Shown piece after piece: positions 51,402-64,000 of a stretch of 64,000 nucleotides of DNA. Where the stretch lies: the NCBI GenBank assembly GCA_000720535.1, contig JOAZ01000001.1, positions 1-64,000 of the forward strand, read 5' to 3'. The notes under the pieces were generated by a model that worked only from the letters and a program-made list of their open reading frames with translations, did no database searches and had not been told where the DNA came from. This DNA comes from Streptomyces halstedii. Its GTDB lineage: Bacteria > Actinomycetota > Actinomycetes > Streptomycetales > Streptomycetaceae. The translations under genes and the position numbers were made by a program. Each line of letters starts with the position of its first letter. Position 1 is the stretch's first letter.

Positions 51402-52892
51402 ATGCCGCACACCTCCCGCCGACTGCGTGCCGCGCTGCTGGTCACCGCGTCGGCCGCCCTCGTCGCCGCGACCCTGCCCGCCCCCGAACCGCTCGGCATC
51501 GGTGACCGCCTCTTCCCCCACCTCGGCAACCCCGGGTACGACGTCCTCGCCTACGACATCTCGCTCACCTACCGGGGGAAGAACACCGAACCCCTCGACG
51601 CCGTCACGACCATCGACGCGCGGACCACGCACCCCCTGGAGCGTGTCAACCTCGACTTCGCCGTGGGGACCGTCGAGACCGTCGAGGTCGACGGACGCGC
51701 CGCCGAGTTCGCCACCCGGGACGAGGATCTCGTCATCCGGCCACCGGACCGTCTCCCGGCCGGTGTGCCCGTCCGCATCACCGTCCGGCACACCAGCGAC
51801 CCCTCCGGGGACCCGTCCCGCGGCGGGTGGGTGCGCACCGCGGACGGTCTCGCGATGGCCAACCAGGCGGACGCCGCCCACCGGGTCTTCCCCGGCAACG
51901 ACCACCCGGCGGACAAGGCCTACTTCACCTTCCGGGTCACCGCCCCGAACGACCTCACGGTGGTGGCGGGCGGTCTGCCGGCGGGACGGCGGCGGCACGG
52001 GGACACGACCACCTGGACCTACCGCACCGCCCACCCGATGGCCACGGAACTGGCCCAGGTGTCCATCGGCCGCTCCACCGTCCCGCACCGCACGGGCCCC
52101 CACGGGCTGCCGGTCCGCGACGTGGTGCCCTCCGCCGACCGCGACATCCTGGAACCCTGGCTGGACAAGACCCCGAAGCACCTGGCCTGGATGGAGGAGC
52201 AGGTCGGCCCGTACCCGTTCGAGACGTACGGACTGCTGGTGGCCGACACCGAGACCGGCTTCGAACTGGAGACCCAGACCCTCTCGCTCTTCGAACGGTC
52301 CCTGTTCACCGAGCCCGCCTACCCCGCCTGGTACATCGAATCGGTCATGGTGCACGAGCTCGCCCACCAGTGGTTCGGCGACAGCGTCTCGCCCCGGGTC
52401 TGGTCCGATCTCTGGCTCAACGAGGGACACGCCACCTGGTACGAGGCCCGGTACGCCGAGGAGCACGCCGACAAGCCGCTCGAACAACGCATGCGGGAGG
52501 CCTACACCCACTCCGACGCCTGGCGCGCCGCGGGCGGACCGCCCGCCCACCCCGACCCGCCCTCACCGGACCACAAGATCAGCCTGTTCCGGCCGGTGGT
52601 CTACGACGGCAGCGCCCTCGTCCTGTACGCCCTGCGGCAGGAGATCGGCGCGGATGCCTTCGACCGCCTGGAGCGGGCCTGGGTGCGCGGGCACCGGGAC
52701 CGCTCGGCCACCACCGCGGACTTCACCCGGCTCGCCGCACGGATCGCCGGACGGGACCTGACGGCGTTCTTCGACGGCTGGCTCTTCGGCGAGAAGACAC
52801 CGCCCATGCCGGGGCACCCCGACTGGCGTGGCGCGGCCCCCCGTACCGCCGCCGGGCCGCGGGCCGCCGTACCCGCCCCGAAACCCGGGTGA
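51402..52892 (+). CDS. Secreted M1-family metallopeptidase
   Basis: 496 residues. A signal peptide (~1-28, RRLRAALLVTASAALVAATLPAPA-like) and a gluzincin M1 peptidase domain: HELAHQWFGD (His318, Glu319, His322) and the distal zinc ligand in NEGHATW (Glu341). The GxMEN exopeptidase motif appears as TGFELETQT, lacking the usual Met-Glu-Asn, so substrate binding may differ from aminopeptidase N. The C-terminal ARM-repeat domain of full-length M1 enzymes is missing, as in the short bacterial class. No ribosome binding site is seen before ATG 51402. Confidence 0.9.
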   Translation: MPHTSRRLRAALLVTASAALVAATLPAPEPLGIGDRLFPHLGNPGYDVLAYDISLTYRGKNTEPLDAVTTIDARTTHPLERVNLDFAVGTVETVEVDGRAAEFATRDEDLVIRPPDRLPAGVPVRITVRHTSDPSGDPSRGGWVRTADGLAMANQADAAHRVFPGNDHPADKAYFTFRVTAPNDLTVVAGGLPAGRRRHGDTTTWTYRTAHPMATELAQVSIGRSTVPHRTGPHGLPVRDVVPSADRDILEPWLDKTPKHLAWMEEQVGPYPFETYGLLVADTETGFELETQTLSLFERSLFTEPAYPAWYIESVMVHELAHQWFGDSVSPRVWSDLWLNEGHATWYEARYAEEHADKPLEQRMREAYTHSDAWRAAGGPPAHPDPPSPDHKISLFRPVVYDGSALVLYALRQEIGADAFDRLERAWVRGHRDRSATTADFTRLAARIAGRDLTAFFDGWLFGEKTPPMPGHPDWRGAAPRTAAGPRAAVPAPKPG

Positions 52893-53025
52893 CGGGTCCA
52901 TCGGGGGCATGCCACTATCGACACACCGGCACGGCGACGGCCCGCGGGATCCCGGTCCATGGGAATCTTCCGGCGGCGTCACACGTTGTGACCGGTGTAA
53001 CGACTTCCATCGACGTAAGGATCCA

Positions 53026-54546
53026 ATGACCTCCTCTTCCTCCCTTCCCCAGGACGCGCAGGACGCGCAGAGCGCCACGGACACCGCGTCCGAAAGCCTC
53101 ACCGAGAGCCTTCGGGCCGACGCCCTGATGGAAGAGGACGTCGCCTGGAGCCACGAGATCGACACCGAGCGGGACGGCGAACAGCTCGACCGCTCGGAGC
53201 GCGCGGCCCTGCGCCGTGTGGCCGGGCTCTCCACCGAGCTGGAGGACGTCACCGAGGTCGAGTACCGCCAGCTGCGCCTGGAGCGCGTGGTGCTGGTCGG
53301 TGTCTGGACCTCCGGCACGGTGACCGACGCGCAGAACTCCCTCGCCGAGCTGGCCGCCCTGGCCGAGACGGCCGGCGCGATGGTGCTCGACGCCGTCTTC
53401 CAGCGGCGCGACAAGCCGGACCCGGCCACCTACATCGGCTCGGGCAAGGCGCTGGAGCTGCGTGACATCGTCCTCGAATCGGGGGCGGACACCGTCGTCT
53501 GCGACGGTGAGCTGAGCCCCGGCCAGCTGATCCACCTCGAAGACGTCGTCAAGGTCAAGGTGGTCGACAGGACCGCGCTGATCCTCGACATCTTCGCCCA
53601 GCACGCCAAGTCCCGTGAGGGCAAGGCGCAGGTCTCGCTGGCGCAGATGCAGTACATGCTGCCGAGGCTGCGCGGCTGGGGCCAGTCCCTCTCCCGGCAG
53701 ATGGGCGGCGGCGGATCCAGCGGCGGTGGCGGCATGGCCACCCGTGGTCCTGGTGAGACCAAGATCGAGACAGACCGGCGCCGCATCCGCGAGAAGATGG
53801 CGAAGATGCGCCGCGAGATCGCGGAGATGAAGACCGGCCGCGAGATCAAGCGCCAGGAGCGCAGGCGCAACAAGGTGCCCTCGGTGGCGATCGCCGGATA
53901 CACCAACGCGGGCAAGTCCTCCCTGCTCAACCGGCTCACCGGCGCGGGCGTGCTGGTGGAGAACGCGCTGTTCGCCACCCTCGACCCGACCGTGCGCCGG
54001 GCCGAGACCCCGAGCGGCCGCCTCTACACGCTGGCCGACACCGTCGGGTTCGTGCGCCACCTTCCGCACCACCTCGTCGAGGCGTTCCGCTCCACGATGG
54101 AGGAGGTCGGCGAGTCCGACCTGATCCTGCACGTGGTGGACGGCGCCCATCCGGTGCCGGAGGAGCAGCTCGCCGCCGTGCGCGAGGTGATCAGGGACGT
54201 CGGCGCCGTCGACGTACCCGAGATCGTCGTGATCAACAAGGCGGACGCGGCCGACCCCCTGGTGCTCCAGAGGCTGCTGCGCAACGAGAAGCACGCGATC
54301 GCCGTGTCGGCGCGCACAGGTGCCGGGATCGACGAGCTGCTCGCGCTCATCGACGCCGAACTGCCCCGCCCGTCCGTCGAGATCGAGGCACTCGTGCCCT
54401 TCACGCAGGGCGCGCTCGTCTCCCGGGTGCACGCCGAGGGCGAGGTGGTCTCCGAGGAGCACACCCCGGAGGGCACCCTGCTCAAGGCCCGGGTCCACGA
54501 GGAACTGGCCGCGGAGCTCTCGACGTTCGTGCCGGCGGCCCACTAG
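53026..54546 (+). CDS. hflX: GTPase HflX
   Basis: 506 residues. N-terminal HflX domain with GSGKALEL and the Gly-rich linker MGGGGSSGGGGMATRGPGETKIETD, then a G domain with P-loop GYTNAGKSS (~290), DTVGFVRHLPHHLVEAF and NKAD. HflX splits stalled ribosomes, mainly under heat stress. AAGGA lies six bases before ATG 53026. The ~75-residue N-terminal extension is acidic and low complexity. Confidence 0.95.
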   Translation: MTSSSSLPQDAQDAQSATDTASESLTESLRADALMEEDVAWSHEIDTERDGEQLDRSERAALRRVAGLSTELEDVTEVEYRQLRLERVVLVGVWTSGTVTDAQNSLAELAALAETAGAMVLDAVFQRRDKPDPATYIGSGKALELRDIVLESGADTVVCDGELSPGQLIHLEDVVKVKVVDRTALILDIFAQHAKSREGKAQVSLAQMQYMLPRLRGWGQSLSRQMGGGGSSGGGGMATRGPGETKIETDRRRIREKMAKMRREIAEMKTGREIKRQERRRNKVPSVAIAGYTNAGKSSLLNRLTGAGVLVENALFATLDPTVRRAETPSGRLYTLADTVGFVRHLPHHLVEAFRSTMEEVGESDLILHVVDGAHPVPEEQLAAVREVIRDVGAVDVPEIVVINKADAADPLVLQRLLRNEKHAIAVSARTGAGIDELLALIDAELPRPSVEIEALVPFTQGALVSRVHAEGEVVSEEHTPEGTLLKARVHEELAAELSTFVPAAH

Positions 54547-54683: not shown

Positions 54684-55898
54684 TCAGCGGTCGGCGTACT
54701 TCTCGCTGGCCGCCTCGTAGATCCCCTTGGCCTCCGTGCCGAGGCGCGGTCCGGCCAGCCAGCCCGCCCGCACCGGACCGATGGACGTGTTGGAGACCAG
54801 CGCCGGCTTTCCGTCCCGGCCCTTCGCGACCCAGCCGCCGCCGGAGGAGCCACCGGTCATCGTGCAGCCGATGCGGTACATCGTCGGCTGGTCCTCGAAG
54901 ACCGAGAGACGTCCCGGCCTGTCGGTGCACTGGAACGCCTTCTGGCCGTCGTACGGCGGAGCCGCCGGGTAGCCGGTCGCCGTCATGCCGTCGGTCTTTC
55001 CGGCCGCCGGGGCGTCGAAGTCGACCGGCAGGGCGGAACCGACCGTCTCCTCCAGCGACTTGCCCGTCGAGCCCTTCTCCGGGGTGACCTGGAGGACCGC
55101 GAAGTCGTACGGGGCCCCCTGCCCGCCGGTCGACGCGCCCTCGGAGATCCACTCGTCCGACGTCTGCGCCCACTGGCCCCACCACACGCCGTACGGGGCG
55201 ATCTGGTCCTTGGACGCGTTGTCCAGCTCGGCGGCCGGCATGGCGCTGTCGTTGTAGGAGGGGACGAAGGCGATGTTGCGGTACCACCCGCCCTTCTTGC
55301 CCGCGTGCACGCAGTGGCCCGCGGTCCACACCATGTTGGACTTGCCCGGGTGCGCCGGGTCCCGCACCACGGTCGCCGAACAGACCATCGGTCCCTCGGG
55401 GCCGTCGAAGAGCAGCTTCCCGGACGCCGGGGCGCTGTCGTGGTACGGCGTCGGCAGGCTCGCGGCCTCGACCGGGGCGGGTGTCGGGTCACTCACGCCC
55501 TCGTCGCCCGAGATGTCGTCGTCGACCGGATTCTCCGGCGGCTTCTCCGCCTCACGCATCCGGTCCGGGTCCCACAGGCCCTCGATGATCGGGTTGACGT
55601 AGTCCTTGGCCTCACGCAGCCACGTCGCGCGGTCCCAGTTCTTCCACTCGCCGTCGCGCCACTTGTCGACGTCGATCCCGTGCTCCTTGAGGCGGTCCTT
55701 CAGGTCCTCCGGAATCGTGATCTTGCCGTCGGACTGCCCGGCGGCGGCATCGCTCGCCTTGTCGCCCGGACCGTCCTCGTCCGGTCCGCAGGCGGTGACC
55801 GTGAGCGTCAGGACGGCGGCGAGCGCCGTCACGGCGAGGCCGGGACGGCGTACGCTCCTCCCGCGGCGTGCGGTGTCGGTCGGGCGTATGGGTCGCAT
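54684..55898 (-). CDS. Trypsin-like serine protease lipoprotein
   Basis: 404 residues from ATG 55898 (GGGGA nine bases upstream). Arg-rich N-terminus, hydrophobic stretch and lipobox VTAC (Cys37), so probably a lipoprotein; a twin-Arg pair (RR) precedes the hydrophobic region. The chymotrypsin-fold domain has His in WTAGHC, Asp in PYDFAVLQV and Ser in GGSSGGGW. A ~100-residue acidic region (KITIPEDLKDRLKEHGIDVDKWRD) sits between. Extracellular substrate unknown. It is divergent from the siderophore operon. Confidence 0.88.
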   Translation of the reverse strand: MRPIRPTDTARRGRSVRRPGLAVTALAAVLTLTVTACGPDEDGPGDKASDAAAGQSDGKITIPEDLKDRLKEHGIDVDKWRDGEWKNWDRATWLREAKDYVNPIIEGLWDPDRMREAEKPPENPVDDDISGDEGVSDPTPAPVEAASLPTPYHDSAPASGKLLFDGPEGPMVCSATVVRDPAHPGKSNMVWTAGHCVHAGKKGGWYRNIAFVPSYNDSAMPAAELDNASKDQIAPYGVWWGQWAQTSDEWISEGASTGGQGAPYDFAVLQVTPEKGSTGKSLEETVGSALPVDFDAPAAGKTDGMTATGYPAAPPYDGQKAFQCTDRPGRLSVFEDQPTMYRIGCTMTGGSSGGGWVAKGRDGKPALVSNTSIGPVRAGWLAGPRLGTEAKGIYEAASEKYADR

Positions 55899-56255
55899 CT
55901 GGTGATCCCCCTGGGACTTCGTCACTGACGTCGGTACGGCACTGCCTTCGGTACTGCGCCGCGGAGTCGCCCGGTGCGCGCGGCGCGGACACCCGGTGCC
56001 CCGCCCCGTACGCCGAGCCGGAGCGCCGGCTCCCCCTCGCGTGCGGCCCCCACTATGCCGGTGCCGTCGGGGACGGTACGCGGCAGGGCCGCGGTTCCGT
56101 GGCCGCGAGGATCTCGCGTCGGAGCCGTGATCCCCGGCGTCCCGCGTCGTTGGTACCTACGAGGAACGCCCGTACAGCGTTCACCGGCGGACTCCGCCTG
56201 TCGAGCGCCGTGCCGAGGTGCGACGTGACCGTGACAGCGGGAGGACCGAAGAGCC
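55899..56255. promoter_or_regulatory. Divergent protease-siderophore intergenic region
   Basis: 357 bases with no supported gene. I looked for a DmdR/IdeR iron box (TTAGGTTAGGCT-like) and found none. The ribosome binding site of the first siderophore gene (GGGAGGA, 56239-56245) is at its end. Confidence 0.5.
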
Positions 56256-57647
56256 GTGGCCGTGACCGAACCAGCTCCGGCGACAGCCACCGCCGCCCAC
56301 GAGGGGATCCTGCGGCGCCAGGCACAGCGCGAGTCGGCCGCCCGCACCTACGCGCGCTCGCTGCCGATCGTGCCGGTGCGGGCCAGAGGCATGACCATCG
56401 AGGGTGCGGACGGGCGGCGCTACCTGGACTGCCTGTCCGGCGCGGGCACCCTGGCCCTCGGGCACAACCACCCGGTGGTGCTGGAGGCCATCAGGAAGGT
56501 CATCGATTCCGGTGCCCCGCTGCACGTCCTCGATCTCGCCACCCCGGTCAAGGACGCCTTCACGACGGAGCTGTTCGCCACCCTGCCCCGCGAACTGGCG
56601 GAAGACGCCCGCGTCCAGTTCTGCGGGCCGGCCGGGACGGACGCCGTCGAAGCCGCGTTCAAGCTGGTGCGGGCCGCGACCGGCCGCGACGGACTGCTGG
56701 CGTTCACCGGCGCCTACCACGGGATGACCGCCGGGGCGCTGGCCGCCTCCGGGGGCGCCACCGACGTGCGGGTGACGCGGCTGCCCTTCCCGCAGACCTA
56801 CCGCTGCCCCTTCGGGACCGGCGGCGAACGCGGCGCGGAGATCGCCGCCCGCTGGACCGAGCACCTCCTGGACGACCCCAAGGGCGGGGTGCCCGCACCC
56901 GGCGCGATGATCGTGGAACCGGTCCAGGGGGAGGGCGGCGTCAACCCGGCGCCCGACGGCTGGCTCCGCCGGATGCGTGACATCACCCGGGACCGTTCCA
57001 TCGCCCTGATCGCCGACGAGGTACAGACCGGGGTCGGCCGGACCGGCGCGTTCTGGGCGGTCGAACACAGCGGTGTCGTCCCCGATGTGATGGTGCTGTC
57101 CAAGGCCATCGGAGGCTCGCTGCCCCTCGCGGTGATCGTCTACCGCTCCGGGCTCGACCTCTGGCAGCCGGGCGCCCACGCCGGTACCTTCCGCGGCAAC
57201 CAGCTCGCCATGGCGGCCGGGTCCGCCACGCTCGCCTACGTCCGGGAGAACCGCCTCGCCGAGCGCGCAGGGACGCTCGGCGCGCGTATGATCGCCCAGC
57301 TCCAGGCGCTCGCCGCGGACCACCCCAGCATCGGCGACGTCCGGGGCCGCGGTCTGATGATCGGGATCGAACTCGTCGACCCGGAGGCCGCGCCGGCCGA
57401 CGTCACCGCGGAGAGCGGCTGTGCCCCGCCCCCCGACCCCGAGCTCGCCGCCGCGGTCCAGCGGGAATGTCTGCGCCGAGGCCTTATCGTCGAACTCGGC
57501 GGACGCCACAGCGCCGTGGTCCGACTGCTCCCTCCCCTCACGCTCACCGACGAACAGGCAACGGCGGTCGTGGACCGCCTCGCTGACGCGCTGAGAGCCG
57601 CGGAGCACTCGTCGCATCGTCGGACCGCCGCCGGGCCGACCCGCTGA
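56256..57647 (+). CDS. Diaminobutyrate--2-oxoglutarate aminotransferase
   Basis: 463 residues. A class III PLP aminotransferase: AYHGMTAGAL, MIVEPVQGEGGVNPAPDGWLRR, IADEVQTGVGRTG, and the Schiff-base Lys in VLSKAIGGSLPL (Lys283). It is most like enzymes making L-2,4-diaminobutyrate from aspartate semialdehyde and glutamate (RhbA/EctB type). In this operon diaminobutyrate is presumably a siderophore building block; no ectA/ectC is present, so ectoine is unlikely. GTG 56256 follows GGGAGGA by ten bases. First gene of a four-gene operon. Confidence 0.87.
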   Translation: MAVTEPAPATATAAHEGILRRQAQRESAARTYARSLPIVPVRARGMTIEGADGRRYLDCLSGAGTLALGHNHPVVLEAIRKVIDSGAPLHVLDLATPVKDAFTTELFATLPRELAEDARVQFCGPAGTDAVEAAFKLVRAATGRDGLLAFTGAYHGMTAGALAASGGATDVRVTRLPFPQTYRCPFGTGGERGAEIAARWTEHLLDDPKGGVPAPGAMIVEPVQGEGGVNPAPDGWLRRMRDITRDRSIALIADEVQTGVGRTGAFWAVEHSGVVPDVMVLSKAIGGSLPLAVIVYRSGLDLWQPGAHAGTFRGNQLAMAAGSATLAYVRENRLAERAGTLGARMIAQLQALAADHPSIGDVRGRGLMIGIELVDPEAAPADVTAESGCAPPPDPELAAAVQRECLRRGLIVELGGRHSAVVRLLPPLTLTDEQATAVVDRLADALRAAEHSSHRRTAAGPTR

Positions 57648-57674
57648 CCCCGGATCCCTCACAAGGAAGACGCC

Positions 57675-59594
57675 GTGAACCCCACCCCCGCACCCCAGGC
57701 CGACGGCCCTCTCACCAGCCAGCAGCGAGGAGCGGAGCTGCCGGACAGCGACGTCGCCGTGGAACCGGCGACGGTACCTCGTCAGAAGTCCGGGCCCGGC
57801 GCGACGCCGCGCACCCCGGAGGGCATCGACGCCGGGCCGGCCCGACCGGTCACCACCGCGCAGCCGTCCGGCGAACCGGACGCGCTGGACCACCCCGATC
57901 CCTCCCGCGCCGCCGACAGCGCGGGCACCGAGAGCCTGTTGCGCTGCTGGATCCGGGAGAACGACCTGCCCCGGCCCGAGGACGGCGTCATGCGCGTCCC
58001 GCTGCCCGCCAGCGGCACCGCCCTGCTCGTCCCGGTCGGCCACTGGTCGGCGACCGGCTGGCACCGCCTCGGCACCCCCGCCCTGGAGAGCGCCCCGGCG
58101 GGCGCCCCGGGTGTCGACGCCGTCACCGTGGCCGCCCTCCTCGGGCGCGAGAGCGACCGGAACACCGGGACGGACCTGGTGGCCCGGGTCGCCGACTCGG
58201 TACGGCAGACAGCGGTCTTCCTCGCGGAGCGGCGCCGGCAGCCCGCCGCCGATCCCGAGGCCGACCTCTTCCTCACCGCGGAGCAGGCCCTCGTCCTCGG
58301 CCACCCCCTGCACCCCACGCCGAAGAGCCGCGAGGGCCTCTCCGAGTCCGAAACGCTGCTCTACTCACCCGAGTTGCGCGGGTCCTTCCCGCTCCACTGG
58401 ATGGCCGTGGACCGGTCGATCCTGGCCACCGAGTCGTCCTGGGCCCAGGACGGCCGGCCGGTCGGCGCCGAAGAACTCCTCGCCCCCCACACCGAGGGGC
58501 TGCGCCTGCCCGACGGCACCGCCGCCCTGCCCCTCCACCCCTGGCAGGCGGCCGAACTCACCCGCCGCCCGGACGTCGTGGCCCTGCTGGACAAGGGCCT
58601 CCTGCACGACCTCGGCCCCTACGGCGACCGCTGGCACCCCACCTCCTCCGTGCGCACCGTGCACCGCCCCGGCGCCGGGGTCATGCTCAAGCTGTCCCTG
58701 GGCGTCCGCATCACCAACTCCCGCCGGGAGAACCTCCGCAAGGAGCTGCGCAGGGGAGTCGAGGTGCACCGGCTGCTGGAGACCGGGCTGGCCCGGCAGT
58801 GGCACCAGGCGCACCCCGGCTTCGACATCGTCCGCGACCCCGCCTGGCTCGCCGCAGACACCCCGGACGGCGCCCCCGTCCGGGGCCTGGACGTGATGCT
58901 CCGTCACAACCCGTTCGCCCCCACCGACGACGCCGTGTGCATCGCCGGCCTCACCGCCCCGCGCCCCTGGCCCGGCCGCCCGGGTACGCACTCCCGGCTG
59001 GCGGACGTCGTCTCGTCGCTCGCCGCACGCACCGGCCGCACCGCCCAGGCGGTCGGCGTGGAGTGGTTCCTCCGCTACCTCGACCAGGTCATCCGCCCCG
59101 TAATCTGGTTGGATGCCATGGCAGGCGTCGCCCTCGAAGCACACCAGCAGAACACGCTCGTACTCCTCGACACGGACGGCTGGCCGATCGGCGGCAGGTA
59201 CCGCGACAACCAGGGGTACTACTTCCGTGAGTCCCACCGGGCCGCGCTGGAGCACCGGCTCCCGGGCATCGGCGCCGTCAGCGACACCTTCGTCAGCGAC
59301 TCCGTCACCGACGAACGGCTCGCCTACTACCTGGGCATCAACAACGTGTTCGGGCTCATCGGCGCGTTCGGCTCCCAGCGCCTGGCCGACGAACAGGTGC
59401 TCCTCGCCGCGTTCCGCGGATTCCTGGAGGAGGCCGCCGCACTCGGCTCGTCCCTGCCCGGATACCTGCTCGGCACCTCCCAACTGCGGTGCAAGGCCAA
59501 CATGATGACCCGGCTGCACGGGCTCGACGAACTCGTCGGCCCGGTCGACACCCAGTCCGTCTACGTCTCCATCACCAACCCCCTCCGCGCCTGA
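57675..59594 (+). CDS. NRPS-independent siderophore synthetase, IucA/IucC family (first copy)
   Basis: 639 residues, of which the first ~90 are a low-complexity extension. The IucA/IucC core has FPLHWMAVDRSI, PLHPWQAAEL, TSSVRTVHRPGAGVMLKLSLGVRITNSRREN, EAHQQNTLVLLD and GGRYRDNQGYYFRE, and ends in a FhuF-like region. Such enzymes adenylate a carboxylate (often citrate) and join it to an amine or alcohol. GTG 57675 has AAGGAAG seven bases upstream. 27 bases separate it from the aminotransferase. Which carboxylate and amine it uses cannot be read from sequence. Confidence 0.9.
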   Translation: MNPTPAPQADGPLTSQQRGAELPDSDVAVEPATVPRQKSGPGATPRTPEGIDAGPARPVTTAQPSGEPDALDHPDPSRAADSAGTESLLRCWIRENDLPRPEDGVMRVPLPASGTALLVPVGHWSATGWHRLGTPALESAPAGAPGVDAVTVAALLGRESDRNTGTDLVARVADSVRQTAVFLAERRRQPAADPEADLFLTAEQALVLGHPLHPTPKSREGLSESETLLYSPELRGSFPLHWMAVDRSILATESSWAQDGRPVGAEELLAPHTEGLRLPDGTAALPLHPWQAAELTRRPDVVALLDKGLLHDLGPYGDRWHPTSSVRTVHRPGAGVMLKLSLGVRITNSRRENLRKELRRGVEVHRLLETGLARQWHQAHPGFDIVRDPAWLAADTPDGAPVRGLDVMLRHNPFAPTDDAVCIAGLTAPRPWPGRPGTHSRLADVVSSLAARTGRTAQAVGVEWFLRYLDQVIRPVIWLDAMAGVALEAHQQNTLVLLDTDGWPIGGRYRDNQGYYFRESHRAALEHRLPGIGAVSDTFVSDSVTDERLAYYLGINNVFGLIGAFGSQRLADEQVLLAAFRGFLEEAAALGSSLPGYLLGTSQLRCKANMMTRLHGLDELVGPVDTQSVYVSITNPLRA

Positions 59595-59630
59595 GGACCC
59601 GGGCGCACCCCACGAGAGGAGAGCGTCACG

Positions 59631-60356
59631 GTGCACCAGGCCGATGCGCACCCCGACGCCGCGGCCCGGGCGGAACCGGGCGACGGCGCGGGAGCCGAAG
59701 ACACCCTGGAACTACGGCTCACCGAGGAGCTGCTCGCCGTCCTCGGGGACGAGCCGCAGCCGGCCGGCACGCGCCGTGACACCTCCGATCTCGTCGGCGA
59801 CCCCGCGTCCTGGCGCCCGGCAGCCACACCCGCCGGGGAGTTCCGGCTCGTCCCCGTGGAGCTGACCCGTGACCTCGGGGTGCTCACCCGCTGGATGAAC
59901 GATCCGGCGGTGGCGGCCTTCTGGGAGCTGGCCGGACCTGAGTCCACCACCGCGGGCCACCTGCGGCGCCAACTGGACGGAGACGGGCGCAGCGTGCCCT
60001 GCCTCGGCGTCCTGGACGGCAGGCCGATGAGCTACTGGGAGATCTACCGCGCGGACCTGGACCCGCTGGCGCGCCACTACCCGGCCCGCCCCCACGACAT
60101 CGGCCTCCACCTCCTCGTCGGAGGCGTCGCCAACCGGGGCCGGGGCATCGGCACCCTGCTGCTGAAGGCCGTCGCCGACCTCGTACTCGACAACCACCCG
60201 CGCTGCGCCCGGGTCGTCGCGGAGCCCGACCTGCGCAACACCCCCTCGGTCGCCGCCTTCCTGGGCGCCGGGTTCCGCTTCTCCGCAGAGGTCGAACTGC
60301 CCGACAAACGAGCCGCCCTGATGATCAGAGAACGAGCCCACCGTGCACAGCTGTGA
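59631..60356 (+). CDS. GNAT acetyltransferase of the siderophore operon
   Basis: 241 residues. A GNAT acyltransferase (~85-235; FRLVPVELTRDLGVLTRWMNDPAVAAFWEL, GLHLLVGGVANRGRGIGTLLLKAVADLVL acetyl-CoA loop) of the IucB/RhbD class that acylates amines or hydroxylamines in siderophore pathways. The first ~60 residues are disordered and resemble the start of an IucA/C-associated protein. GTG 59631 follows AGAGGAGAG. Sandwiched between two synthetase genes, as in rhizobactin clusters. Confidence 0.88.
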   Translation: MHQADAHPDAAARAEPGDGAGAEDTLELRLTEELLAVLGDEPQPAGTRRDTSDLVGDPASWRPAATPAGEFRLVPVELTRDLGVLTRWMNDPAVAAFWELAGPESTTAGHLRRQLDGDGRSVPCLGVLDGRPMSYWEIYRADLDPLARHYPARPHDIGLHLLVGGVANRGRGIGTLLLKAVADLVLDNHPRCARVVAEPDLRNTPSVAAFLGAGFRFSAEVELPDKRAALMIRERAHRAQL

Positions 60357-60416
60357 CCAGCAGACCGTCATATCCGCCCCACCCCTACCCCATCGGTCCC
60401 ACCCGGAGGTGTCACC

Positions 60417-62279
60417 GTGCCGACATACCCTGCGAGCCACGACCCGGCAGAACCCGATCCCGCACACGGCCTCCCGGAACTGACCCAGCCTCTCTGGGAC
60501 CGGGTGTCGGCGCGGCTGCTCGCGAAGATGCTCGGCGAGTTCGCGTACGAGGAAGTCGTGGAACCCGCCCCGGCACCGGACGCTGATCCGGGCGGCGAGG
60601 GGCAGTACACCCTCCCGCTCGACGACGGCACCCTCCTGCGCTTCCGGGCCCGGCGCGGTGTGTACGGCAGTTGGCGCGTGGAACCCGACTCGATCTCCGC
60701 GGCGACCGCCGCCCCGGGACCGTCCGGCGGACCCGGCGACCGGGTGCCCTTCCGCGACCCGCTGGACTTCCTCGCCCGCGCCCGCCACCTCCTCGGACTG
60801 GACGGCACCACCCTCGGCCACCTCGTACGCGAGCTCACCGCCACCCTGGCCGCCGACGCCCGGCTCGAACACACGGCGCTCGGGGCCGACCGGCTCGCCG
60901 ACCTCCCGTACGCCGAACTGGAAGGCCACCAGACCGGTCACCCCTGGCTCGTGGCCAACAAGGGCCGGCTCGGCTTCTCCGCCGCCGACGCCGCCCGGTT
61001 CACCCCGGAGGCGCGCACGCCCACCAGACTGCCCTGGATCGCCGTCAGCACCCGGATAGCCAGCTACCGGGGAGTGGCCCGCCTCGCCGCCCCCGAAGAC
61101 CTCTACTCCCGCGAGCTCGACACGGCCGTCCGCGACTCCTTCACCGGCATCCTGCGCGCCCGCGGGCTCGACCCCGAGGCCTATCTGTTCCTTCCGGTCC
61201 ACCCCTGGCAGTGGGACGAGTGGATCGTCCCCCTCTTCGCCCCGGCGATCGCCGGCGGCGACATCGTGCCCCTGCACGCGGACGACGACCTCCGGCTCCC
61301 GCAGCAGTCCATCCGCACGTTCAGCAACGTCCGGCGGCCCGACCGGCACTCGGTCAAGCTGCCCCTGTCGATCCTCAACACCCTCGTCTACCGGGGCCTG
61401 CCGACCGAGCGCACCCTCGCCGCCCCGGCGGTCACCGCCTGGGTCCAGGGGCTCTGCGACAACGACCCCTTCCTGCGGGACACCTGCCAGGTCGTCCTGC
61501 TGGGCGAAGTCGCCTCGGTGGCCGTCGAGCACCCGCTGTACGACCATCTCCCCGAGACGCCCTACCAGTTCAAGGAGATCCTGGGCGCGATCTGGCGGGA
61601 GCCGCTGCCGCCCCGGCTCGCCCCCGGCGAGCGGGCCCGCACCCTGGCCTCCCTGCTGCACACCGACCCCGCCGGCCGGTCCTTCACCGCCGAGCTGGTC
61701 GCCCGCTCGGGGCTCACCCCGCAGGCCTGGCTGACCCACCTCTTCGCCGCCCTGCTGCCGCCGCTCCTGCACTTCCTGTACCGCTACGGCACCGTCTTCT
61801 CCCCGCACGGCGAGAACGCCATCGTCGTCTTCGACGCGAACGACGTGCCCGTACGCCTCGCGATCAAGGACTTCGTCGACGACGTGAACGTCAGCGCCCG
61901 CACGCTGCCCGAACACGACTCGATGCCGCCGGAGGTCCGCCGCATCCTGCTGACCGAGGACCCCTCCTTCCTCACCCAGTTCATCCACTCGGGGCTCTTC
62001 GTCGGCGTCTTCCGCTACCTCTCGCCGCTCTGCGAGGACCAACTGGGTGTCCCGGAGGGCGAATTCTGGTCACTCGTCCGGGCCGAGATCCTGCGCCACC
62101 ACACCCGGTTCCCCGAGCTCAAGGAGCGGTTCGAGCTCTTCGACATGCTGACGCCGACCATCGAGAGGCTCTGCCTCAACCGCAACCGTCTGCACGTGGA
62201 CGGCTACCGCGACCGGCCGGAACGCCCGCACGCGGCCGTCCACGGCCACGTCCCCAACCCGCTCCACCCCTCCGCGTGA
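60417..62279 (+). CDS. NRPS-independent siderophore synthetase, IucA/IucC family (second copy)
   Basis: 620 residues. IucA/IucC core: TGHPWLVANKGRLGFSAADAARFTPEA, PVHPWQWDEW, RPDRHSVKLPLSILNT, HGENAIVVFDANDVPVRLAIKDFVDD. It is distinct from the first copy (different spacing and motifs), so the two probably catalyse successive, different condensations, as RhbC and RhbF do. GTG 60417 follows CCGGAGGTG. A perfect palindrome after the gene probably ends the operon. Confidence 0.9.
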   Translation: MPTYPASHDPAEPDPAHGLPELTQPLWDRVSARLLAKMLGEFAYEEVVEPAPAPDADPGGEGQYTLPLDDGTLLRFRARRGVYGSWRVEPDSISAATAAPGPSGGPGDRVPFRDPLDFLARARHLLGLDGTTLGHLVRELTATLAADARLEHTALGADRLADLPYAELEGHQTGHPWLVANKGRLGFSAADAARFTPEARTPTRLPWIAVSTRIASYRGVARLAAPEDLYSRELDTAVRDSFTGILRARGLDPEAYLFLPVHPWQWDEWIVPLFAPAIAGGDIVPLHADDDLRLPQQSIRTFSNVRRPDRHSVKLPLSILNTLVYRGLPTERTLAAPAVTAWVQGLCDNDPFLRDTCQVVLLGEVASVAVEHPLYDHLPETPYQFKEILGAIWREPLPPRLAPGERARTLASLLHTDPAGRSFTAELVARSGLTPQAWLTHLFAALLPPLLHFLYRYGTVFSPHGENAIVVFDANDVPVRLAIKDFVDDVNVSARTLPEHDSMPPEVRRILLTEDPSFLTQFIHSGLFVGVFRYLSPLCEDQLGVPEGEFWSLVRAEILRHHTRFPELKERFELFDMLTPTIERLCLNRNRLHVDGYRDRPERPHAAVHGHVPNPLHPSA

Positions 62280-62297
62280 GCCCCCTGCCGCCCGCGA

Positions 62298-62321
62298 GCC
62301 CGGTCCCCCGGGGGACCGGGC
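62298..62321 (+). terminator. Palindrome ending the siderophore operon
   Basis: GCCCGGTCCCCC directly followed by GGGGGACCGGGC, a 24-bp perfect palindrome 18 bases after the stop. As a hairpin it would have a short strained loop. Confidence 0.65.
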
Positions 62322-62383: not shown

Positions 62384-64000
62384 ATGACGAAGCCATCACT
62401 CCCCGAGCTCCTCCACGCCGCCGTCACCGCCGTAGGCGGTACGGAACGGCCCGGCCAGGCCGCCATGGCCGGAGCCGTCGCCGAGGCCGTCGACGACAAC
62501 GCCCACCTGCTGGTCCAGGCCGGTACCGGCACGGGCAAGTCCCTCGGGTACCTGGTGCCCGCGCTGGCCCACGGGGAGCGTGTCGTGGTGGCGACCGCGA
62601 CCCTGGCCCTCCAGCGCCAGCTGGTGGAGCGGGACCTCCCGCGCACGGTCGACGCGCTGCACCCGCTGCTGCGCCGCCGCCCACAGTTCGCCATGCTCAA
62701 GGGCCGGTCGAACTACCTCTGCCTGCACCGGCTCCACGAGGGCGTCCCGCAGGACGAGGAGGAGGGCCTGTTCGACCAGTTCGAGGCGGCGGCACCGTCC
62801 AGCAAGCTGGGGCAGGACCTGCTGCGGATGCGCGACTGGTCGGACGACACGGAGACCGGCGACCGCGACGACCTCACCCCGGGCGTCTCCGACCGGGCCT
62901 GGGCCCAGGTCTCGGTCTCCTCGCGCGAATGCCTGGGCGCGACGAAGTGCGCGTACGGCGCGGAGTGCTTCGCGGAGGCGGCGCGGGAGCGGGCCAAGCT
63001 CGCCGATGTCGTCGTCACCAACCACGCGCTGCTCGCCATCGACGCCATCGAGGGCGCCCCGGTCCTCCCGCAGCACGAGGTGCTGATCGTCGACGAGGCC
63101 CATGAGCTGGTCTCGCGGGTCACCGGGGTGGCCACCGGCGAGCTGAACCCCGGCCAGGTCAACCGGGCGGTGCGCCGGGCGGCCAAGCTGGTCGACGAGA
63201 AGGCGGCCGACGCGCTGCAGACCGCCTCGGAGGGGTTCGAGCGGGTCATGGAGCTGGCGCTCCCGGGGCGCCTGGAGGAGGTGCCCGAGGACCTCGGCTA
63301 CGCGCTGATGGCCCTGCGTGACGCCGCGCGTACGGTGATCTCCGCGCTCGGTTCCACCCGGGACAAGTCCGTGCAGGACGAGGACGCCGTCCGCAAGCAG
63401 GCGGTGGCGTCGGTCGAGTCCGTCCACAGCGTCGCGGAGCGCATCGTCCAGGGCTCCGAGTACGACGTCGTCTGGTACGAGCGCCACGACCGCTTCGGCG
63501 CCTCCGTGCGGGTCGCGCCGCTCTCCGTGTCGGGGCTGCTGCGGGAGAAGCTCTTCGCCGAGCGTTCGGTGGTCCTGACCTCGGCCACGCTGAAGCTGGG
63601 CGGCGACTTCAACGGGGTGGGCGCGTCCCTCGGGCTCGCCCCGGAGGGCACGGCCGGCGAGGACGTCCCGCAGTGGAAGGGGCTGGACGTCGGTTCGCCG
63701 TTCGACTATCCGAAGCAGGGCATCCTGTACGTCGCCCGGCACCTGGCGACCCCGGGCCGGGAGGGGGCCCGCACGGACATGCTGGACGAGCTCGCCGAGC
63801 TGGTGGACGCGGCGGGGGGCCGCACCCTGGGGCTGTTCTCCTCCATGCGGGCGGCCCAGGCCGCCGCGGAGGAGCTGCGCGGACGGCAGGACCGGACGAT
63901 CCTCCTCCAGGGCGAGGAGACGCTCGGGGAGCTGATCAAGAACTTCGCGGCGGACCCGGAGACCTGCCTCTTCGGCACCCTGTCGCTCTGGCAGGGCGTG
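62384..64000 (+). CDS. dinG: DinG-family ATP-dependent helicase (3' end beyond the window)
   Basis: 539 residues are visible with no stop before the window ends. XPD/DinG-type SF2 helicase: Walker A GTGTGKS (48-54), DEAH box VLIVDEAHELV, SATLKLGG, and four Fe-S cluster Cys (NYLCLH, then CLGATKCAYGAEC). These 5'-3' helicases unwind forked DNA and R-loops during repair. ATG 62384 was chosen because a damage-type promoter ends nine bases before it. The reading frame remains open to base 64000. Confidence 0.93.
   Translation, partial: MTKPSLPELLHAAVTAVGGTERPGQAAMAGAVAEAVDDNAHLLVQAGTGTGKSLGYLVPALAHGERVVVATATLALQRQLVERDLPRTVDALHPLLRRRPQFAMLKGRSNYLCLHRLHEGVPQDEEEGLFDQFEAAAPSSKLGQDLLRMRDWSDDTETGDRDDLTPGVSDRAWAQVSVSSRECLGATKCAYGAECFAEAARERAKLADVVVTNHALLAIDAIEGAPVLPQHEVLIVDEAHELVSRVTGVATGELNPGQVNRAVRRAAKLVDEKAADALQTASEGFERVMELALPGRLEEVPEDLGYALMALRDAARTVISALGSTRDKSVQDEDAVRKQAVASVESVHSVAERIVQGSEYDVVWYERHDRFGASVRVAPLSVSGLLREKLFAERSVVLTSATLKLGGDFNGVGASLGLAPEGTAGEDVPQWKGLDVGSPFDYPKQGILYVARHLATPGREGARTDMLDELAELVDAAGGRTLGLFSSMRAAQAAAEELRGRQDRTILLQGEETLGELIKNFAADPETCLFGTLSLWQGV

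Follow-up and report, generated by a model that had tools for sequence, protein, structure and literature searches.

The 64,000-nucleotide stretch of Streptomyces halstedii DNA analysed here (the window) contains a four-gene operon (AT, NIS1, GNAT and NIS2) which, together with a decarboxylase-like and a hydroxylase-like gene (DEC and MONO) on a distant contig of the same genome, probably forms one split pathway of the rhizobactin/schizokinen type, making a citrate bis-hydroxamate (schizokinen or a succinyl analogue). In this scheme, AT would make 2,4-diaminobutyrate, DEC would convert it to 1,3-diaminopropane, MONO would hydroxylate one amine of the latter, and GNAT would acylate the resulting hydroxylamine; NIS1 would then attach the first arm to citrate and NIS2 the second. 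The predicted product, citrate with two N-acyl-N-hydroxy-1,3-diaminopropane arms, has the architecture of schizokinen-type chemistry, and would be schizokinen itself if the acyl group is acetyl. The choice between acetyl and succinyl is left open because CsbC, the acyltransferase of a published cluster that GNAT resembles, prefers succinyl. The gene content, its conservation and the unsplit operons of relatives are read from the sequences themselves, and from these we infer the enzyme steps, their substrates, the product and the cooperation of the two halves. Sampled genomes, contigs and fetched loci are denoted by G, C and L, respectively, G000 being the genome of the window.

The rhizobactin 1021 operon has the gene order rhbABCDEF, and shares with the window operon the succession of aminotransferase, type A synthetase, acyltransferase and type C synthetase (we take NIS1 to be of type A and NIS2 of type C). 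DEC and MONO correspond to the two steps not found in the window operon, with the difference that the rhbB and rhbE counterparts lie here on another contig, and that neither locus has an iron box. By predicted function, the window holds the rhb/schizokinen-type set of an aminotransferase, type A and type C IucA/C synthetases and a hydroxylamine-type acyltransferase. An initial annotation, made from the window alone, had noticed both the rhb-like order and the missing rhbB and rhbE counterparts, and profile searches indeed gave neither family near the operon; the dissimilarity that it saw between the two synthetases is likewise reflected in their different nearest solved structures (Table 1). 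AT matches the diaminobutyrate transaminase model TIGR00709 with 486 bits, which passes the cut-off of 401.6, and falls slightly below the cut-off of NF005393 (648 vs 671) and far below that of EctB (350 vs 552). The open reading frames of the operon are long and have a gene-like codon bias.

A genome-wide search for the decarboxylase and hydroxylase, which the initial annotation had proposed along with the idea that another locus might supply these steps, yielded candidates for both on contig C5, far from the operon. DEC and MONO share an ATGA overlap, and the pair sits between pepN and genes for a 5'-nucleotidase and a pyruvate kinase. The genome has two PF00282 decarboxylases, DEC and a gene on C22, neither of them near the operon; the latter is a glutamate decarboxylase, and was rejected as the missing enzyme. 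Its PF13434 hydroxylases comprise two strong matches (C5 and C3) and three weak ones, again none near the operon, and the sole match to either family on the operon's own contig is a weak one at 231 kb. A position for DEC or MONO directly beyond the window is ruled out, as neither family matches there. The C3 hydroxylase (L011:8156-10689, G000) lies beside formyltransferase-like and iron-siderophore-transporter-like genes, judged from their N-termini only, and perhaps belongs to a coelichelin-type cluster.

The genome contains two IucA/C genes, both inside the window, and one strong Acetyltransf_8 gene, which is the GNAT of the operon (a second gene, on C19, passes at 40 bits). The suggestion that the desferrioxamine genes supply the missing steps therefore fails for this genome, because there is no IucA/C synthetase besides NIS1 and NIS2. 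DEC scores 257 bits against the L-2,4-diaminobutyrate decarboxylase 2qma vs 190 against the desferrioxamine decarboxylase, and a DesA control ranks the opposite way (486 vs 306); the best NCBIfam model for DEC is DABADecarRhbB, at 292 bits, far below its cut-off of 900. The nearest structures to MONO are 6xbb, the putrescine N-hydroxylase 7us3 and the desferrioxamine hydroxylase 5o8p (∼300 bits each), which rank before amino-acid hydroxylases (MbtG, 175 bits); we assume diamines to be the substrates of 6xbb and 5o8p. The NCBIfam match of MONO is an amine hydroxylase model (402, below the cut-off of 700). These similarity scores do not decide the chain length of the substrate.

An argument for joining the two loci comes from relatives in which the operon is unsplit. 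In all six loci from one other family (L043, L044, L220, L221, L223 and L224), the order AT-DEC-NIS1-GNAT-MONO-NIS2 is found beside dinG, and in two of these hflX lies on the far side of the operon. G166, the sole sister-genus genome sampled, has hflX-AT-DEC-NIS1-GNAT-MONO-dinG, with no NIS2 and no detached pair, and six-gene clusters also occur farther out in the phylum (L081, L082 and L086). Within the genus, the order hflX, protease-like gene, AT, NIS1, GNAT, NIS2, dinG is complete in 62 of the 80 named operon loci, and contig ends truncate most of the remaining 18. Of these named loci, 78 are labelled Streptomyces, and the others Kitasatospora papulosa and Microtetraspora glauca. Two of the 18 (L179 and L198) have hflX, the protease-like gene, AT, NIS2 and dinG, with NIS1 and GNAT unmatched. 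No DEC or MONO is found at the dinG site of the genus, either in the 80 named loci or in 39 unnamed ones. Genomes that lack NIS2 have AT-NIS1-GNAT before dinG in 19 of 20 fetched loci; the twentieth (L119) is a different locus, belonging to another cluster, and was left out of the dinG-site counts. At the second site, 20 pair loci were picked by their MONO matches, and so test the neighbourhood of MONO rather than its frequency. Every one of the 20 includes pepN, and all but L032 include DEC (no match there at E 1e-15); matches to AT, NIS or GNAT are absent throughout.

Phylogenetic trees support a common origin for the operon. NIS1 of the genus groups with NIS1 of G166 (support 100/99), and NIS2 of the genus with that of the other family's dinG operons (96/95); therefore, the dinG-site operon is the same across the genus and its relatives. 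DEC and MONO of the pair are placed among rhb-type clusters from the order, with those of L054, L071/L052 and L093 as their nearest neighbours. The first two of these also contain AT and NIS genes, and L093 stops at a contig edge with just DEC and MONO visible. The branch separating the pair from its desferrioxamine counterparts has support of 81/82 and 96/99 for MONO and of 100/100 and 92/90 for DEC in two samplings, and the distant clusters L081 and L082 fall on the desferrioxamine side in three of these four trees. DesA and DesB matches from seven loci are 34-37% and 39-43% identical to DEC and MONO, respectively. When the pair is constrained to group with the G166 genes, the approximately unbiased (AU) test gives p 0.08 for MONO; for DEC this grouping is already in the best tree (support 64/91). 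Either origin of the pair, departure from the operon or replacement of lost genes, would be compatible with these trees, which do not settle between them.

The distribution of the genes was scored by best matches in 197 genomes of the order, 181 of them from the genus of the window. A MONO orthologue is scored in 171 of the 181, its position being unchecked for most, and NIS1 is matched in 173. AT is matched in 144, which is an undercount: the cut-off of E 1e-120 overstates absence, as 6 of 12 inspected loci scored as lacking AT keep a diverged AT in place. Some AT matches scored as present belong to other clusters (e.g., L119 of G054). NIS2 is present in 82 genomes and lacking in 99; this count leaves out G113, whose locus (L055) is another cluster, although it was among the 83 NIS2 genomes of the association test. 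G084 is scored present on a single 472-residue match. The presence of MONO is associated with that of AT (Fisher p 0.0007) and of NIS1 (p 0.006), both values being uncorrected for relatedness. Ten genomes are MONO-negative. Six of them have a hydroxylase that is 54-58% identical to MONO, which in four cases adjoins NIS genes (L047, L048, L050 and L053); of the other two, that of G065 lies near a NIS2-like match, by coordinates, and that of G081 at a contig edge. G134 has a 67% identical hydroxylase in another cluster (L071/L052), and retains AT alone of the operon. The assemblies of the remaining MONO-negative genomes, G046, G089 and G091, consist of 410 to 910 contigs. Additional rhb-type clusters with their own DEC, MONO and iron boxes occur in several genomes of the genus, beside the pair or replacing it (L046, L047, L049, L050, L051, L054 and L071/L052).

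Several observations weigh against a single split pathway leading to schizokinen. The presence of NIS2 and that of MONO are not associated (p 0.35 with 83 NIS2 genomes, kinship ignored), and the pair is equally common without NIS2. The nearest relatives of the pair are the Streptomyces clusters named above rather than the operon genes of G166, and a grouping of the pair with the desferrioxamine genes withstands AU tests on a reduced set (p 0.34 and 0.49). Genome G091, matched to S. mutomycini NRRL B-65393, has the operon and no MONO above 32% identity in 410 contigs, although another strain of S. mutomycini is reported to make schizokinen; this reference assembly (L138) has no match other than the operon at the thresholds used, with not all candidates scored. 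G103 has an apparently intact AT-NIS1-GNAT, with full-length matches, but its DEC and MONO matches are in pieces. Against plain schizokinen in particular stands the published in vitro result that, with antibiotics as substrates, CsbC is a better succinyltransferase than acetyltransferase (PMC9600172).

The lack of association between NIS2 and MONO, the occurrence of the pair in genomes without NIS2, and its position away from AT, NIS and GNAT in all 21 pair loci tested would all be expected if the detached pair serves some other pathway, and the operon, without N-hydroxylation, makes a carboxylate-type chelator from citrate and diaminobutyrate. We consider this unlikely, since the genome has no other IucA/C gene to use the product of the pair, relatives carry the same two enzyme types within the orthologous operon, AT-NIS1-GNAT and the pair are equally widespread, and GNATs of this kind act on hydroxylamines in known pathways. 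The use of undecarboxylated diaminobutyrate, which the initial annotation had proposed, is not needed because DEC was found, and the dedicated pair fits better; it is kept here only as part of this rival explanation.

Other alternatives concern the output. It is possible, if rather doubtful, that the pathway is split as proposed and that its main output is something other than schizokinen: GNAT would add succinyl, and the N-hydroxy-N-succinyl-diaminopropane unit would be joined to citrate or handed to another synthetase (e.g., DesD), chiefly where NIS2 is missing. The 99 genomes that lack NIS2 fit such an output, as do the cross-talk between NIS pathways named in the title of a 2024 study (see below) and the report that CsbC succinylates amines, including putrescine, better than it acetylates them (PMC9600172), but there is no DesD in the genome of the window, and the acetyl compound, schizokinen, has been tentatively detected in three strains (see below). 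A decaying remnant with no product is very improbable. Genes have been lost stepwise (NIS2 is kept in 82 of 181 genomes, AT is gone at 6 of 12 inspected loci, and it stands alone in G134), but NIS1 is found in 173 of 181, the reading frames are long and have the codon bias of genes, and attempts to disrupt csbC failed in one strain (PMC9600172).

Iron-box sites were sought with TWAGGTTAGSCTNACCTWA (DmdR/IdeR-type), allowing ≤3 mismatches. Such sites occur in nine of nine desferrioxamine loci, in 10 of 17 rhb-type cluster loci (one or more of the six genes being missing from several of them), and nowhere in 550 kb of shuffled sequence. As the initial annotation had stated, there is none in the 64 kb of the window, with a desferrioxamine locus as a positive control, and there is none at either locus in this genome. 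The dinG loci of the genus also have none (0/80 named, of which 66 reach past AT by gene order; 0/26 unnamed; 0/12 further loci), nor do 23 pair loci; of two further pair loci, L218 has a site with three mismatches. Among the unsplit dinG operons, a site is present in L043, L223 and L224, which share one genus, and absent at ≤3 mismatches from L044, L221 and the sister-genus locus L222; L220 is cut before the promoter. A clean link between loss of the iron box and the split is not upheld, as some unsplit operons lack the box and the L218 pair has a site. Conserved words are found upstream of AT (one in 44 and another in 37 of 61 upstream regions), and comparison of the AT and DEC promoters for a common motif gave only weak short words. 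By eye, a palindrome (CTTAGG, four bases, CCTAAG) precedes DEC in L033 and L036; it is unlike the 19-base iron box.

The missing iron box raises the question of what the molecule is for. A more speculative suggestion, to which we give limited credence, is that most Streptomyces harbour, at two loci, a hidden hydroxamate metallophore pathway no longer under iron-box control, with its synthetase half by dinG and its amine half next to pepN and the pyruvate kinase gene. It may be expressed constitutively or in response to a signal other than iron, and could matter for normal growth, given the failed csbC disruption in one strain; without NIS2, the arm may go to other synthetases. Because cluster finders seek adjacent genes, a pathway with its decarboxylase and hydroxylase among housekeeping genes looks incomplete. 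If the split pathway is real, a cryptic cluster found very widely in a genus of antibiotic producers gains a defined substrate, a predicted product and clean genetic tests.

The desferrioxamine genes desABCD share the logic of decarboxylase, hydroxylase, acyltransferase and type C synthetase with the split pathway, and differ in forming a single locus with iron boxes, where desD, absent from the genome of the window, stands beside desA, desB and desC. The aerobactin (iuc) cluster contains a lysine hydroxylase and no diaminobutyrate aminotransferase; the window operon differs in having AT and in not having the hydroxylase in the cluster. We take SCO5799-SCO5801 of S. coelicolor to be, probably, the NIS2-less form AT-NIS1-GNAT of the window operon. 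Passages of three papers (PMC3224560, PMC7324645, PMC6414726) either call these genes a putative siderophore cluster or place them under siderophore biosynthesis, and a table of a fourth (PMC3610822) includes their aminotransferase.

The initial annotation called the operon an orphan, which is outdated: it is the published csb cluster, i.e., the cryptic siderophore cluster of Streptomyces sp. YIM 121038, in which csbA-csbB-csbC-csbD are followed by DinG, LexA and NrdR (PMC9600172). The window operon has the same genes in the same order, then DinG. The passages of that paper concerned with the cluster note that an iucD-like monooxygenase is missing, that the product was not found and that csbC disruption failed, and they name no decarboxylase; the second locus is added by the present analysis (PMC9600172). 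Schizokinen has been reported by liquid chromatography-mass spectrometry from S. anulatus RLA103 (PMC11865988), and tentatively or putatively by the same technique from S. mutomycini SL02 and Streptomyces sp. SL03 (PMC13136089); in the relevant passages, the assigned cluster is not stated to be a csb-type operon. A title-level literature search found no paper linking the csb-type operon to a second locus. A 2024 study, known from its title, reportedly describes cross-talk between separate NIS pathways making desferrioxamine derivatives, is said to concern S. ambofaciens, and may already cover part of this.

Table 1. Features of the operon region in the window and of the second locus (positions in the window unless a locus is given).
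Feature	Position	Strand	Basis
AT, diaminobutyrate--2-oxoglutarate aminotransferase (csbA/rhbA-like)	56256..57647	+	Pfam Aminotran_3, NCBIfam
NIS1, IucA-like type A synthetase (csbB/rhbC-like)	57675..59594	+	Pfam IucA_IucC + FhuF; nearest solved structure IucA, 183 bits
GNAT, N-acyltransferase (csbC-like), N-terminal extension of ∼77 residues before the domain	59631..60356	+	Pfam Acetyltransf_8; nearest solved structure MbtK
NIS2, type C synthetase (csbD/rhbF-like)	60417..62279	+	Pfam IucA_IucC + FhuF; nearest solved structures DesD, AlcC, IucC
DEC, diaminobutyrate-decarboxylase-like	L010:8701-10101 (G000 contig C5)		structure-database and NCBIfam matches
MONO, amine N-hydroxylase-like	L010:10098-11540 (G000 contig C5)		structure-database and NCBIfam matches
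hflX, upstream flanking marker	52828..54546	+	Pfam
Divergent protease-like gene, conserved neighbour	54684..55925	-	by eye only; no Pfam match at E 0.001
Intergenic region before AT, conserved blocks ∼56051-56065 and ∼56145-56157; no iron box	55926..56255	.	comparison across loci of the genus
dinG/yoaA-type helicase, downstream flanking marker, runs past the window	62384..64000	+	NCBIfam

The initial annotation had also reported that an exporter and a receptor are missing, which holds for the operon and its direct neighbours; the whole window was not scanned for transporters. Genes in the fetched locus L013 resemble lexA and nrdR, judged from their N-termini alone. The G103 loci, L217 (G103:C4:1776000-1792000) and L108, may represent either a natural test case or a sequencing error. 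The protease-like neighbour of AT is duplicated in tandem in four relatives (L056, L058, L097 and L104).

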